From a virus: DNA of 22,513 nt. Within the stretch, counting starts at the first letter, position 1; each line of letters begins with the position of its first letter. The stretch covers positions 1-22,513 of IMG/VR virus record IMGVR_UViG_3300017724_000096; one strand, written 5' to 3'. Below are positions 16,228 to 22,513 of this stretch, piece by piece. A program made the position numbers and the translations under genes. The notes beneath the pieces are model-generated. The model did not search any database. It was given only the letters and a program-made list of their open reading frames with translations, and was not told the DNA's origin.

Positions 16228-16536
16228 ATGGATAGATTATCAAGATTAAAAATTAGAAGAGACTTTTTAAAAGGAGGTAAAAGAACATATAAAGGGATAA
16301 AATATCCCTCTATTCCTATATCATCTTCAGATGTTTATATTATAGCTAAAGTAGGAGATAGATTAGATACTATGGCTTATGATTTTTATAAAGATTCTAG
16401 ACTATGGTGGATTATAAGTAGAGCTAATCCTAATAAAATAAAAAGAGACAGCTTTTTCATAAATCCTGGGCTACGCATAAGAATTCCCATAGATATAAAT
16501 AGAATAAAAGATGAATACGAAAATTTAAATTTTTAA
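16228..16536 (+). CDS. LysM-like baseplate wedge protein (T4 gp53-like)
   Basis: A 102-residue protein with a basic N-terminus (RLSRLKIRRDFLKGGKRTY). A LysM-type fold spans about residues 37-88: YIIAKVGDRLDTMAYDFYKD, RLWWIISRANP, then FFINPGLRIRIP. The order GDRLD, FY, LWW, N, PG, RIP is typical of the LysM proteins of contractile tails. T4 gp53, a baseplate wedge subunit with a LysM-like fold, is about twice as long, so this is a minimal version. In such systems the domain links wedge and hub rather than binding peptidoglycan. It starts five bases after the preceding stop and ends three bases before the hub gene. Confidence 0.82.
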   Translation: MDRLSRLKIRRDFLKGGKRTYKGIKYPSIPISSSDVYIIAKVGDRLDTMAYDFYKDSRLWWIISRANPNKIKRDSFFINPGLRIRIPIDINRIKDEYENLNF

Positions 16537-16539
16537 GTT

Positions 16540-19500
16540 ATGTCAATTTTTAAAGAATCCTTTCCTCCATACATAAAAAAACAAATAGAGCGAAGAGAAA
16601 ATATAATTGGTCAAGAAAAAAGAGATAAAGATTTTTTCACTTATACGACCAATAAACAATGTGTTGTAAGAATGTCATCAGGAGTCAACATCGAAAACAA
16701 TGACATACTAGAAGAAGGAGAATACGTAGTAGGAGTACCTGCAGCGGAGAGTATAGCCAAACAGTATATTTTAGAAGGAGGAATACCTTCAAATTTTAGT
16801 GGAAACACAGAAAGTGGTTTTACATCTACACCTAGAGGAGGTTTTGCAAAAAAAGGAGGTGTGTATGGAGACCCTGATGTAAGAGCAGACGCTAAAGATG
16901 GATTTGGTATAGTACCAATGCCTGGTATTATAGATGCTAACATAAGAACAAAATCAGCCTATGGTTCTTTAAAAACAGGTAAAGTTAAATTTATAGCTCA
17001 TAATCAACGTCAATTAGAAATTTTAGAATTACTTTATATGAGACCTGGTTATACTTTACTGTTAGAATGGCAATGGTCTCCCTTTATTGATAATGGTGGT
17101 AATACTTCTAATAAAATATATGGAGTTAAAGATTTTTTTGATAAAAATATGAGCACTCCTAGGATACAACAACAAATACATTTAAATAGAATTACATCAG
17201 GGGGAAATTATGATGCTATTATAGGATATTGTAAAAATTTTTCATATACTTTAAGAGATGATGGGGGGTATGATTGTGAAACAGAAATTATAGCAAAAGG
17301 AGAAATACTTGAATCTCTAAAAATGTCTGAAAGAAGCCAAATTAGTGGTGGAGATGCAGAAGGAAAAACTCCAATGGAAGATTTATTTGATGAAATTATA
17401 GAATGGTCAGACCAAGTAGATGAAGCTAATGATTTTAATGCAGCTGATCTAGCAAATATATCTATAGCAACACAACAAGAAGCAGAAAAATTAGTTAGAA
17501 AAACATACAATAAGGGAGCTAATCTTTTAAAATGGGTAGTAGATGGAGCAACAGACCTTGCAACATCAGCCACTACATATATAGATGATAAAACAGGAAC
17601 TAATATTTCTAAATTTAATAATACAATAAAAGCAAGTGGAGAGAACATAAACAAAAATATTGAAGGTGCAAAAGTAAGCGAAACAGATCTTTTTGCACCA
17701 GAATTAGCCATTGATATTGAAGATGTAAAAGAAGAAAATATGAGAGCTTCTTTAAAAGCAAGATTAGGATTAAGTCCAGATTTATTTCCTAGTGGAGTTG
17801 AATTATTTCCTCTTTTAATACCTAAAGATTCTAATTTTTTTAGTGGCTTAGATGATACAACTTTAGATTTTTCAGGGGGAGAAAACACATCTAGTGGGGA
17901 GGATGGTGAATCTATATCATTATCTGAATTAGATTATAATACAACTTATATAAGATGGGACGTGTTAGCATCCGTTATAAACACAGAAATAATACCTCTG
18001 CATAAAAAAACAGGAAAACCCATATTTACAATTCAAACATGCCATGTAGTTAACCAAGATACTACACCTACTATTAAACCTTTATTATATTCACGAGCAA
18101 CCCCACCTTCATTAGATAAAAAAATAGAAACAATTAATGGTAAAGCTCTAAATTGGGACTTAACAGACATATCTGTAAATCCAAGTGTTTGTTTATTACC
18201 TCATTTAATGTATGATTTTGCAGCCATAAAAGGATTAAGTAATAATATAACAAACCAAAACCAAAAGGGACAACCATGTAATGGATATTGGGCTGAGGGA
18301 GATCTAGTAGGACCAGGTACTCCTTGGTCTGGGTGGAAAATTCCAATCCAGCAAAAAATTTCAGATACTGAAAAAAGATATAATATAGGAAATATATATT
18401 TTGGAGTAGAATATTTAAGATATACCTTTAGAGACATGTATTATACAGATGAAGATGGAGTAAATCCTGATTTTAGCTTATTAAAATATTTGAAAAAGAT
18501 TTGGAATGATGTAAATCAATCAACAGGAGGTTCCCATCAATTTGAATTTAATGTAGATCATACAATGACAGATCAAGCAAGAGTAATAGACATGCAAGCA
18601 TCTGAAGAAGATCTAACAGAATCTGTACATGAATTAAAAATACAATCTCCTGATTCTATAGTAAGAGATATAGCATATAATTCTTCTATACCTAAAGCAT
18701 TAACATCTACTATAGCAATAGCAGCTCAAGCTCCTGACAGTATAGATAATTTAGATCAAGTTTCATTTGCAGCTATAAACAGAGGAATAGTAGACAGATT
18801 TACGAAAGAAGTATTAGTTTCCCAACAACCTAATCAAAAAGATATAAATGGATGGACAGCAAAATTTAATGAATGGATGAGAGATTTATATTTAGGTATA
18901 AATTATCAAGCAGGTAGTAGAGATGCAACAAAACTTGAAATAGCAGCAGATAAAACTGCAAAAACAGTAGATGCTTCAACAAAAGGCACAGCATATGAAG
19001 ATTTAGTAGATTTAGATAAACAAACAGACGAATACAATGTTGTTGATGGAAAAATACTAATAGGAAAATACCACCCAGATAATAGAACAGGGGGTGGTAT
19101 ATTATCTAATTATCAGTATGATGTATTTACAGGAAGACAAGCAAGTAAATATGATTCTGATGAAAAAAAAGTCATATCTCCTGCAAAAATATCTGAAGCT
19201 AGAGGAGCTTTAAAAGATGTACAAAAAGCCATTATGAACTTAAGTAAAGTATATGGTAATGATGGAATAGGAGAGGATGGCTTTCCTTATTATAGAGGTC
19301 AACCCTTAAAAAATCCTAAACAAAGTGTATCTTCAATTATCCCTTTAAAATTTAATGCTAAAATGGATGGTATAGGGGGTATAGTAATAGGAAATGTATT
19401 TAAACTCCCTAAAAGCAGATTACCTAAAGGATACAGAGGAAAAGATGTACATTTTATAGTAATGGGAGAAGAACAAAGTATAAAAGACCAAAATTGGACT

Positions 19501-20268
19501 ACAACAATTACAGGTCAAATAACTTTATTAGGTAAAACAGAGTCTTCTAGTGGAGATGAGGGTTTAGGATCATGGGTAAAAAATTATACAATAGATAATA
19601 TACCAGAAGTAATTTATGATCCTAATGAAGATCAAGTAGAAGAATTAGAAGGAGGACCAGGAGCAGGTAGCACAGAAGCGTTAGGGCCTACTAAAGGATT
19701 ATTTAATCCATTAGATTCAATAAGTTTTACTACTCAATATGGTCAGTTAAGAAAAATGGGTAAAGGAGCAGGATCTGAAGGGGCTGCAGGAGTATACAGA
19801 AGACATAGGGGCTGTGATTTAAAAGGTAAAACAGGAGATAAATTATATTCAATGGGAGATGGTACAGTTTCTTATGTAGACCCCCCAACAATGGAAAATT
19901 CAAAAACAGGATGTGGAGGTACTATAAAAATAAAATATGAAGGAGATGCATCAGGTATTGAATCTATGTATTGCCATTGTAGTGCTGTTTTTGTAAAAAA
20001 AGGAGAAAAAGTAACAGCAAAACAACATGTTGGTAATATGGGGGGAGAACCAGGAACCCCAGGAGCGGGTAACACAACAGGAGCCCATCTTCATTTAGCA
20101 ATAATGGCACCAGGTAGTGTAGATTGGAAAACATCAGATTTACAACTAGGTCATAGATTTGGTAAAGGGGGTAAATACACAGATAAAAGTAGTAATAAAT
20201 TAAAAGGAACAGAAGGTTTTTCAGCTAATGGGACAGTTGATCCTGCTCAATATTTAATAAAAACTTAA
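16540..20268 (+). CDS. Baseplate hub protein with C-terminal M23 peptidase domain
   Basis: A 1242-residue protein, probably the central hub/spike with a peptidoglycan-cutting domain. The hub part includes YMRPGYTLLLEWQWSPF and IIGYCKNFSYTLRDDGGYDC (about 228-247). A later part, MDGIGGIVIGNVFKLP (from residue 942) through IVMGEEQSIKDQNWTTTITGQI, resembles gp27-like hub proteins. After a Gly/Glu linker, residues 1065-1200 form an M23 (lysostaphin/LytM-type) zinc endopeptidase: H1089-RGC-D1093 and H1183-L-H1185 are the usual ligands, with H1146 in YCHC as the additional catalytic histidine. It would cleave peptide crosslinks during injection, the job of the T4 gp5 lysozyme. Translation follows the gp53-like gene after three bases, with TTAAGTTATG at the start. 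Confidence 0.87.
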   Translation: MSIFKESFPPYIKKQIERRENIIGQEKRDKDFFTYTTNKQCVVRMSSGVNIENNDILEEGEYVVGVPAAESIAKQYILEGGIPSNFSGNTESGFTSTPRGGFAKKGGVYGDPDVRADAKDGFGIVPMPGIIDANIRTKSAYGSLKTGKVKFIAHNQRQLEILELLYMRPGYTLLLEWQWSPFIDNGGNTSNKIYGVKDFFDKNMSTPRIQQQIHLNRITSGGNYDAIIGYCKNFSYTLRDDGGYDCETEIIAKGEILESLKMSERSQISGGDAEGKTPMEDLFDEIIEWSDQVDEANDFNAADLANISIATQQEAEKLVRKTYNKGANLLKWVVDGATDLATSATTYIDDKTGTNISKFNNTIKASGENINKNIEGAKVSETDLFAPELAIDIEDVKEENMRASLKARLGLSPDLFPSGVELFPLLIPKDSNFFSGLDDTTLDFSGGENTSSGEDGESISLSELDYNTTYIRWDVLASVINTEIIPLHKKTGKPIFTIQTCHVVNQDTTPTIKPLLYSRATPPSLDKKIETINGKALNWDLTDISVNPSVCLLPHLMYDFAAIKGLSNNITNQNQKGQPCNGYWAEGDLVGPGTPWSGWKIPIQQKISDTEKRYNIGNIYFGVEYLRYTFRDMYYTDEDGVNPDFSLLKYLKKIWNDVNQSTGGSHQFEFNVDHTMTDQARVIDMQASEEDLTESVHELKIQSPDSIVRDIAYNSSIPKALTSTIAIAAQAPDSIDNLDQVSFAAINRGIVDRFTKEVLVSQQPNQKDINGWTAKFNEWMRDLYLGINYQAGSRDATKLEIAADKTAKTVDASTKGTAYEDLVDLDKQTDEYNVVDGKILIGKYHPDNRTGGGILSNYQYDVFTGRQASKYDSDEKKVISPAKISEARGALKDVQKAIMNLSKVYGNDGIGEDGFPYYRGQPLKNPKQSVSSIIPLKFNAKMDGIGGIVIGNVFKLPKSRLPKGYRGKDVHFIVMGEEQSIKDQNWTTTITGQITLLGKTESSSGDEGLGSWVKNYTIDNIPEVIYDPNEDQVEELEGGPGAGSTEALGPTKGLFNPLDSISFTTQYGQLRKMGKGAGSEGAAGVYRRHRGCDLKGKTGDKLYSMGDGTVSYVDPPTMENSKTGCGGTIKIKYEGDASGIESMYCHCSAVFVKKGEKVTAKQHVGNMGGEPGTPGAGNTTGAHLHLAIMAPGSVDWKTSDLQLGHRFGKGGKYTDKSSNKLKGTEGFSANGTVDPAQYLIKT

Positions 20269-20272
20269 TAAA

Positions 20273-21133
20273 ATGGGATATTTACCAAAATCAAAATTCC
20301 AAAAACTTTTTACTAGTGGAGATGAATTTGTAAATGCTAGAACTAAGCTAATTTATAAAGGTCCTTACATACAAACATCAACAGGGGCGTATGCGGGACA
20401 TAATGCTTCACAATTAAAAACATTATTAGCTAGAATAGTATGGACAGATCTTACAACAGATGAAACTGAAAGTGAGGGAAAAATGGTGGTTTCTGCTGAT
20501 TCTCAAATATATCAAAGAATTTCTAAAAAAGATAAATTTATCAGGGGCACTGAAAGAATTGTAGCTACTAAAACAAAACCAACAAAAAAAGATTATAAAA
20601 AAGGTAGATATATAAGATTTTTTGCCAAAAAAAATAATTCAATTCTTAAATATATTGAAGTAAGTGAAAAAACTTATAAAGCAATAAGAGGTAGAAATAA
20701 AAAATATGATTATTACTTGTACACAGCAGGTGCAATAGATTGGGCATTAGAAGGAGATGTAGTAAAAATAAATAAAAATTTATTATTATTAAAATCTAAA
20801 GAATTTCCTAATATATCTCAATTATTTCCTAAATTAAACGAATACCAAAAATTATTATATTCAAATGGAAGTGAATTAGTGTATAGAGATAATCCTAGCA
20901 GAAAATATGTTGGGTATTATCATATTCATCCAGATAAGGGTCCTATGGAAGGATCTGTACATAAATCAATTCCTCATGCTAGATTAATGTTTGTTACTAA
21001 TAGTATAATTCAAGATGAAGAAACACCATCATTTACTTATACACCCCCTCCAAATATCCAAAACAGAATAACTCCATATGGAGCTTCAGGAGATATAGAT
21101 GATTCTTCTTCTGGTGGAGGAGGTGGTTATTAG
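20273..21133 (+). CDS. Putative baseplate-associated protein with YxGxY...G...G motifs
   Basis: A 286-residue protein, Lys/Tyr-rich, starting four bases after the hub gene. I do not recognise a named family. A motif occurs twice: YKGPYIQTSTGAYAGHN (residues 28-44) and YVGYYHIHPDKGPMEGSVH (212-230), sharing Y-x-G-x-Y...G-xxx-G. The second copy is His-rich (H217, H219, H230, H235) and could bind a metal. I have an impression of similar YHIHPxKGPM motifs in other phage structural proteins. The middle is charged (KPTKKDYKKGRYIRFF). The C-terminus TYTPPPNIQ then SSSGGGGGY is flexible. Its place at the end of the baseplate operon suggests a virion or baseplate role, which is inference. Confidence 0.65.
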   Translation: MGYLPKSKFQKLFTSGDEFVNARTKLIYKGPYIQTSTGAYAGHNASQLKTLLARIVWTDLTTDETESEGKMVVSADSQIYQRISKKDKFIRGTERIVATKTKPTKKDYKKGRYIRFFAKKNNSILKYIEVSEKTYKAIRGRNKKYDYYLYTAGAIDWALEGDVVKINKNLLLLKSKEFPNISQLFPKLNEYQKLLYSNGSELVYRDNPSRKYVGYYHIHPDKGPMEGSVHKSIPHARLMFVTNSIIQDEETPSFTYTPPPNIQNRITPYGASGDIDDSSSGGGGGY

Positions 21134-21159: not shown

Positions 21160-22443
21160 ATGTTCTATCTTATCGAAACAAAAAACCAACTAAACCAACT
21201 AGAATCAAATTTATCTTCTAGTTTAACACGCTATCTTGAATTTATTCAGGGTAATGACAACACACACCCTGCGTTAGCAGAAATAATAGCTGTGTATCTT
21301 GAAGTTGATGGTGAAGATTTTATCATACCTTTAAACCATTTAGAATGTATAAATTGGGACAAAGATGCTATTTTGAATATGCTATCAAATTATGAGTTTT
21401 GCGTTTTAGATAAAAAAGCCGCTTTACACGCGGCCCCACACATATCTTATACGGATATACAACATACAATACCTTTATTAGACCAACATACAACCCAAGC
21501 ACACCAATGGTATTATCGAAAATTCCCACATACTAAGGTAAATAAAATGATACCAATCGGAAAACACCTAGAACGCTGTAAATTAAAAACACACAGTATA
21601 TTCCAAGAGTATCGCGGGGAAATTAATGGATACTTTGACAAAATATTATTACCTGTCTTACATGAATTAGAGAAGAATGCATTAAAATTCAATGACAAGT
21701 TTGACGACTATTTTACACTAAAAAACAAAAAATTCTCCATAAAAGAAAATCATATATACGGATGGTATAATCCATACACCACAACCGGAAGACCTGTAAA
21801 TAACTTTAACGGATTAAATTTTGTAGGACTAAAACACGACAATGGAGAACGTGATTGTTTCGAACCAGACAATAACTTTTTTGTAGAAATGGATTATGAT
21901 GGCTATCATCCACGCCTAATAGGCGATATAGTTGACTACCAATTTACAGGCAACGTACACAACACACTTGCGGAAATTTACTTTAAATCCAAGAAAATTA
22001 CTCCACAACAATATAAAGAAAGTAAAACACTTACATTTAAACAGATATATGGGGGTATAGACAAGGCGAACTTACATCATCCTTTTTTCTTTAAAACACA
22101 ACAATTTATAGACATTATTTGGGAAGAATTTAATAATAAAGGAGAAATCAAATGTGGTAGTTATACTATAAGAAAGAAAGATCACCCAAAAATTCATTCT
22201 CAAAAATTATTTAATTATTATATTCAAGCTACCGAAACAGAAACCAACATTCGTAAGATAAAAATCATACAAGATTATTTAAAAACAAAGGAAACAAAAT
22301 TAGTTCTTTACATATATGATGCGTTCGTTTTTGACGTATCTAAATCAGATGGAAAACAAACATTAACGGATTTACAAAATATACTTAATGACAAATTTCC
22401 CGTGAAGTTAAAATCTGGCGCGCATTATGGGTCTTTGCAATAA
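21160..22443 (+). CDS. Short divergent family A DNA polymerase
   Basis: A 427-residue protein with Pol I-type polymerase motifs in order. TTTGRP (207-212) matches the TGR loop. Motif A is D245-Y-D-G-Y-H-P-R252, aligning with DYSQIELR. Motif B has K289, F293 and Y297-G in KTLTFKQIYGG. Motif C is YIYD387AFVFDV, aligning with VHDELVFEV. Both metal-binding aspartates (D245, D387) are kept, but the steric-gate Glu of motif A is His250 and the motif C Glu is Ala388. The first 110 residues resemble a shrunken 3'-5' exonuclease domain without a clear DxE, so proofreading is doubtful. An AAGG lies just before the ATG, unlike most genes here, and the codons look richer in C. It may begin a replication region; T4 itself uses a family B polymerase. 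Confidence 0.82.
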   Translation: MFYLIETKNQLNQLESNLSSSLTRYLEFIQGNDNTHPALAEIIAVYLEVDGEDFIIPLNHLECINWDKDAILNMLSNYEFCVLDKKAALHAAPHISYTDIQHTIPLLDQHTTQAHQWYYRKFPHTKVNKMIPIGKHLERCKLKTHSIFQEYRGEINGYFDKILLPVLHELEKNALKFNDKFDDYFTLKNKKFSIKENHIYGWYNPYTTTGRPVNNFNGLNFVGLKHDNGERDCFEPDNNFFVEMDYDGYHPRLIGDIVDYQFTGNVHNTLAEIYFKSKKITPQQYKESKTLTFKQIYGGIDKANLHHPFFFKTQQFIDIIWEEFNNKGEIKCGSYTIRKKDHPKIHSQKLFNYYIQATETETNIRKIKIIQDYLKTKETKLVLYIYDAFVFDVSKSDGKQTLTDLQNILNDKFPVKLKSGAHYGSLQ

Positions 22444-22479: not shown

Positions 22480-22513
22480 ATGAACAACAGATTATACTGT
22501 ACCTTTACAACAT
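22480..22513 (+). CDS. Possible start of the next gene, cut by the window edge
   Basis: An ATG at 22480 opens MNNRLYCTFTT and runs off the window. It fits the expected distance from the promoter-like motif at 22448 and the ATTTATG start context. A second open frame starts at 22455 (MTGKIPVIYEQQ...), but that ATG lies inside the promoter-like box. Only 11 codons are visible, so this is tentative and no function can be given. Confidence 0.25.
   Translation, partial: MNNRLYCTFTT

Follow-up and report, generated by a model that had tools for sequence, protein, structure and literature searches.

The Locus and Its Genes

The window analysed here is a viral DNA fragment of 22.5 kb (22,513 nucleotides, from IMG/VR), and near its end lies the gene for a short DNA polymerase (Table 1). 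A first-pass annotation, made from the sequence alone, had recognized a family A polymerase in this frame by a motif A reading DYDGYHPR between exact anchors. Both anchors, D245 and R252, are found there, and the other residues that it named (H250, F293, Y297, D387 and A388) are all present in the 427-residue open reading frame.

Table 1. Features of the window in and around the short polymerase gene.
Feature	Coordinates	Strand	Remarks
Baseplate-wedge-like protein	16228..16536	+	102 aa; context
Tail protein with M23 peptidase domain	16540..20268	+	1242 aa; tail module upstream
Protein of unassigned function, directly upstream of the short polymerase	20273..21133	+	286 aa; homologues in part of the relatives
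Short, predicted thumbless family A DNA polymerase gene	21160..22443	+	427 aa, ATG start
Degenerate 3'-5' exonuclease-like domain, residues 1-155	21160..21624	+	DEDD residues gone
Site of the Pol I thumb, residues 171-203	21670..21768	+	33 residues without long helices
T209-G-R211-P212 motif ahead of motif A	21784..21795	+	R211 = R668 of Pol I; T209, R211 and P212 invariant (78/78)
Motif A, DYDGYHPR	21892..21915	+	D245 catalytic; H250 at the steric-gate position
O-helix, residues 282-297	22003..22050	+	K289, F293, Y297
Motif C, YDAFVFD	22315..22335	+	D387 catalytic; A388 replaces E883
Start of orf130 (MNNRLYCTFTT...)	22480..22513	+	Ends with the window, 34 bases in

The surroundings of the gene are conserved among its relatives. 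The baseplate/M23 tail module precedes it in all 54 loci that have at least 7 kb of upstream sequence. Downstream, the order short polymerase, orf130, gp32-like SSB, UvsX/RecA, 5'-3' exonuclease and DnaB helicase is seen in 32 of the 33 loci whose sequence continues for 5.4 kb or more on that side; in the exception, L024, cargo genes are inserted and the locus then ends. The orf130 gene, present in 76 of the 77 loci whose downstream sequence runs to 500 bases or more, follows the polymerase gene directly or soon after it and encodes a conserved protein of 130-155 residues with the invariant pattern HRKK..N.LYTIN.LN (e.g., L012:9296-9715; L031:1346-1801). In the phage collection the two genes co-occur in the same six records. 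Searches of Pfam, PHROGs and NCBIfam gave no meaningful match for orf130. Its AF2 model has a pLDDT of 89, and the best PDB match, the origin-binding domain of polyomavirus T-antigen, reached a Z of only 6.2; Foldseek returned nothing under E 0.1, and no fold was assigned. Between orf130 and the SSB gene there is an insertion spot (L024:9708-16283; L012:9712-10140) at which proteins of very unequal length share an N-terminus resembling MKKSELRNIIRQVIxE, which is possibly a targeting or packaging tag.

Relationship to Pol I

Polymerases of family A have the shape of a right hand, with palm, fingers and thumb, and exclude ribonucleotides with a Glu that acts as a sugar gate. The Pfam model for this family, DNA_pol_A (PF00476), scored 30 bits against the short polymerase (3e-7), below its curated cut-off of 34.3 bits, and the window's enzyme found no match in PHROGs or NCBIfam, neither of which has a model that names it. 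A profile built from the family matched the Klenow fragment among PDB sequences at E 9e-7. Alignment with E. coli Pol I pairs D245 with D705, H250 with E710 and R252 with R712 in motif A, and D387 with D882 and A388 with E883 in motif C. In the O-helix K289, F293 and Y297 correspond to K758, F762 and Y766; elsewhere R211 corresponds to R668, and N352 and Q356, which are conserved in the family, to N845 and Q849. By its fold and catalytic residues the short polymerase belongs to family A.

Both catalytic Asp residues, D245 of motif A and D387 of motif C, are invariant in the 78 distinct members that were aligned, as are H250, K289, F293 and Y297. The stretch from D245 to R252 aligns with D705-R712 without an insertion or deletion, so that a realignment could not bring a different acidic residue to the gate, and none is seen there in the alignment. 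With the register set by D245 and R252, the Glu gate is absent, its place being taken by His in all 78 sequences. Position 388 is Ala in 69 members and Ser in nine. The active site had therefore been read correctly from the sequence of a single gene: His250 in place of the gate Glu, D387 beside an Ala instead of Glu, and an O-helix with Phe293 and Tyr297 retained.

The N-terminal domain had been described as a short exonuclease region lacking a clear DxE, which agrees with the alignment. The region is about 155 residues long and contains no DxE, and all four DEDD acids of Pol I are without a counterpart (D355 falls on I29, E357 on G31, D424 on a gap and D501 on K143); no complete DEDD site appears. 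H36, H60, K86 and D99 of this domain are nevertheless invariant (78/78), and E138 and N128 are found in 76-77 of the 78. These residues do not coincide with the DEDD site. It is possible that H36, H60, K86 and D99 form a new site or a domain contact.

Predicted Structure and the Missing Thumb

The AF2 model of the short polymerase, built from 56 sequences, has a pLDDT of 92.6 and a pTM of 0.90. In the PDB it most resembles the large fragments of Pol I (Foldseek E 5e-18), for which VIA-align gave a Z of 26 with an rmsd of about 3.6 over 394-402 residues, covering the whole model; the match to the Pol I fold spans approximately 400 of about 580 residues. In the alignment, the 33 residues from E171 to Y203 correspond to 119 residues of Pol I, E541-Y659, which include the thumb. 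This stretch is 32-36 residues long in 77 of the 78 members and 16 in the remaining one, and between residues 184 and 230 the model contains no helix of four or more residues. The thumb subdomain thus appears to be missing in the whole family, as judged from alignment, secondary structure and aligned length. The fingers are smaller too, since 56 residues separate the O-helix Tyr from the Asn of the next palm helix, compared with 80 in Pol I.

On the evidence of the sequences, then, this enzyme lacks the Glu gate and the DEDD site, and apparently the thumb, three usual features of family A. The missing thumb and the conserved gene neighbourhood, both unseen in the first-pass annotation, say more about function than the features that it had noted.

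Extent and Conservation of the Family

The short polymerase is a member of a large metagenomic family. A first scan yielded 28 close relatives and a second, wider scan at least 565 confirmed ones; beyond the 78 aligned here there are hundreds more in IMG/VR. The family is carried by a large group of aquatic T4-like phages, three of which have names: Flavobacterium phage immuto, Microcystis phage Mel-JY01 and the 484-kb LR756508. Gene 1 of immuto (QQO91919.1) is 36% identical and labelled only 'DNA polymerase family A', and WWT39333.1 of Mel-JY01 is 29% identical and labelled only 'hypothetical protein'; neither record mentions any special feature. Relatives in bacterial genomes were limited to two MAG contigs (L150 and L151, one filed as Rickettsiaceae), which are probably phage contigs binned with a bacterium.

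The ratio dN/dS was 0.11-0.20 against nine relatives. Because the unusual residues are invariant across 78 sequences and dN/dS is low, they are a settled trait maintained by selection and not a product of decay.

A similar tail sheath suggested phage RM378 as a relative. It was rejected, since RM378 has a family B polymerase in split form, and a search of it with the profile of the short PolA, run without a positive control, gave no match. Matches in Staphylococcus phages and gut phages were set aside as ordinary PolAs with Glu gates (DYSALEMR, DYSQVELR).

Other Polymerases in the Same Genomes

A second polymerase, which the first-pass annotation had raised as a point to be checked, is not seen in the window, itself a fragment, but is present in the records of relatives. 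Whole records were searched for polymerases of families A and B, and in all 13 that were long enough to show one a full-size polymerase is present beside the short one. A full PolA of 770-796 residues occurs in immuto and six long IMG/VR contigs, and a PolB in Mel-JY01, LR756508 and three IMG/VR contigs. In L011, which belongs to the window's own clade (81% identity), a PolB frame of 895 residues with DIE and DLTSLYPS motifs lies about 16 kb downstream. In LR756508 (L038; 260623-266900 and 47415-48068) the PolB sequence is apparently divided among two or more reading frames, and there is a DnaE-type polymerase domain too. In the relatives' records, then, the short polymerase is neither the only nor the main polymerase of the genome.

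The full-length PolAs (immuto gene 71 and its relatives) share the family A fold and the catalytic Asp residues with the short enzyme. They differ from it in having intact exonuclease motifs (DTE...HNASFD...ADTD) and a Glu gate (DY.SLEP), both of which the short enzyme lacks. Profile-profile comparison gave no convincing similarity between the two, hence the short enzyme did not arise recently by duplication of the full PolA that the phage carries. In the tree of the short enzyme, which has long deep branches, is rooted only at the midpoint and does not label L011, the PolA-bearing genomes form one clade (support 97/91) with the PolB-bearing ones outside it, so that the class of replicase probably changed once while the short enzyme stayed. 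The retention of a second polymerase by a large T4-like phage lineage in which the replicase is swapped points to an unassigned step in phage DNA replication or repair.

Comparison with Known Polymerases

Among known enzymes the Pol I large fragments (Klenow, Bst, M. smegmatis Pol1) are the nearest in fold (Z 26), and D705/D882, R668, K758/F762/Y766, N845 and Q849 are all matched. In contrast to them, the short enzyme has no recognizable thumb, shorter fingers, His for E710, Ala or Ser for E883 and Tyr for H881, and about 430 residues compared with about 600; it has no fused 5' nuclease. Loss of exonuclease activity is shared with the Bst and Taq fragments.

The polymerase of phage Tt72 has a natural non-acidic residue, Ser616, at the position of E883 and is still active, and its S616A variant keeps 76% of the activity (PMC9324360). 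The Ala of motif C is consequently unlikely to be crippling, by analogy with that enzyme, and the missing Glu is weak evidence of anything. Tt72 Pol differs in keeping the Glu gate, replacement of which by Ala leaves 35% of the activity, and in having a thumb and strong proofreading (PMC9324360). As for the gate, His250 may relax the choice of sugar or may still exclude ribonucleotides. Bulky residues serve as steric gates in families B and Y (PMC10639073), so that a bulky His would not amount to an open gate.

DpoZ of phage phiVC8 is likewise a phage family A polymerase with a changed active-site residue (PMC8599892). In DpoZ, however, the O-helix Tyr is replaced by Phe and the enzyme is specific for 2-aminoadenine (PMC8599892), and it has exonuclease and thumb domains (PMC8775771). 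The Phe replacement is absent from the short polymerase, in which Tyr297 is found in 78/78, and the NCBIfam model for DpoZ did not match it. Replication of modified DNA had been among the roles first suggested. As a general role it fails, for 7-deazaguanine genes are annotated in immuto and none in the annotation of Mel-JY01; the description as a small non-proofreading family A enzyme with a changed gate stands. The set annotated in immuto (L031:18607-36971) comprises QueC, QueD, QueE, QueF, FolE and DpdA.

The abortive-infection reverse transcriptases AbiA and AbiK also have palm and fingers without a thumb (PMC11077055). They belong to the unrelated RT fold family, carry a helical domain at the thumb position and function in defence. 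A literature search of partial coverage found no paper on a family A phage polymerase that is thumbless or has a His gate. From its sequences and model, the loss of gate, thumb and DEDD site would make the short enzyme a new variant within family A, and a testable accessory polymerase instead of a genome-copying enzyme. A widespread natural group of this kind lets the need for a thumb and a Glu gate be asked directly.

Proposed Function

The reading we favour, with middling confidence, is that the short polymerase is an active, non-proofreading accessory enzyme of low processivity that fills short gaps, apart from the replicase. Activity is to be expected because the metal-binding Asp residues and the Arg, Lys, Phe and Tyr that hold the incoming nucleotide are kept, which would preserve the chemistry of the palm. 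The thumb of polymerases in general recognizes and positions the nascent duplex (PMC11077055), and since it is lost here we infer low processivity. Together with the smaller fingers and the lost exonuclease site, this would mean weak binding of primer-template, few nucleotides added per encounter and no proofreading. The enzyme may fill short gaps on SSB-coated DNA, left either by the neighbouring 5'-3' exonuclease as it removes RNA primers or by UvsX-dependent recombination and repair, and the functions of Pol I would then be split over separate proteins. The product of orf130 would be the likeliest partner, because its gene is nearly always beside that of the polymerase.

Some points weigh against gap filling. 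The gene neighbourhood is circumstantial, as the operon also serves ordinary replication, and a plain gap-filling polymerase needs no H36, H60, K86 and D99 in its N-terminal domain. If another part of the enzyme or a partner compensated for the loss of the thumb, it could be more processive than we suppose. A bolder reading of the sequences, which we think unlikely, is that of a thumbless class within family A, in which orf130 would supply the grip on DNA and the His gate and re-used exonuclease-like domain would lead to a distinct chemistry, such as the synthesis of short mixed or ribonucleotide-tolerant patches. If true, such a class has been kept across hundreds of aquatic phages beside a PolA or PolB replicase.

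The adjoining UvsX and SSB genes are also what one would expect of a lesion-bypass (translesion) polymerase, whose open non-proofreading site would insert nucleotides opposite damage after stalling, acting with UvsX. The absence of an exonuclease site, the smaller fingers and the altered gate fit this role, and lesion bypass has been proposed for a family A polymerase of Entamoeba (PMC2919377). No bypass-specific feature was found in the short polymerase, however, and its near-universal presence in the operon of the lineage suggests a housekeeping task; we consider bypass doubtful. Tolerance of ribonucleotides is another candidate: His250 would admit rNTPs, and RNA or mixed patches would be made when dNTPs are scarce. 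In its favour, the Glu by which family A enzymes keep rNTPs out (PMC10639073, PMC9324360) has given way to His in 78/78, and the full PolA found in these genomes retains it. Yet the bulky His could itself block the 2'-OH, Tyr297 and Phe293 are kept, and the immuto record annotates a DnaG primase and, just downstream of the operon, a ribonucleotide reductase, which makes this explanation quite improbable.

The lack of a thumb across the whole family has a further possible meaning. The absence of a thumb in AbiA has been interpreted as adapting that enzyme to a product that is single-stranded (PMC11077055), and like the thumbless Abi enzymes the short polymerase might not hold a duplex product and might extend 3' ends or proteins in untemplated or single-strand synthesis. 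This is very unlikely, the conservation of R211, N352 and Q356 (R668, N845 and Q849 of Pol I) suggesting templated synthesis and the Abi enzymes being unrelated by fold family. The least probable reading is that the protein is no longer a polymerase and persists as a structural or regulatory remnant. The Pfam score below the cut-off and the loss of the motif C Glu and of the exonuclease site might be taken that way, but the catalytic Asp and O-helix residues do not vary among the 78 sequences, whose identity falls to about 29%, and the gene is under strong purifying selection.
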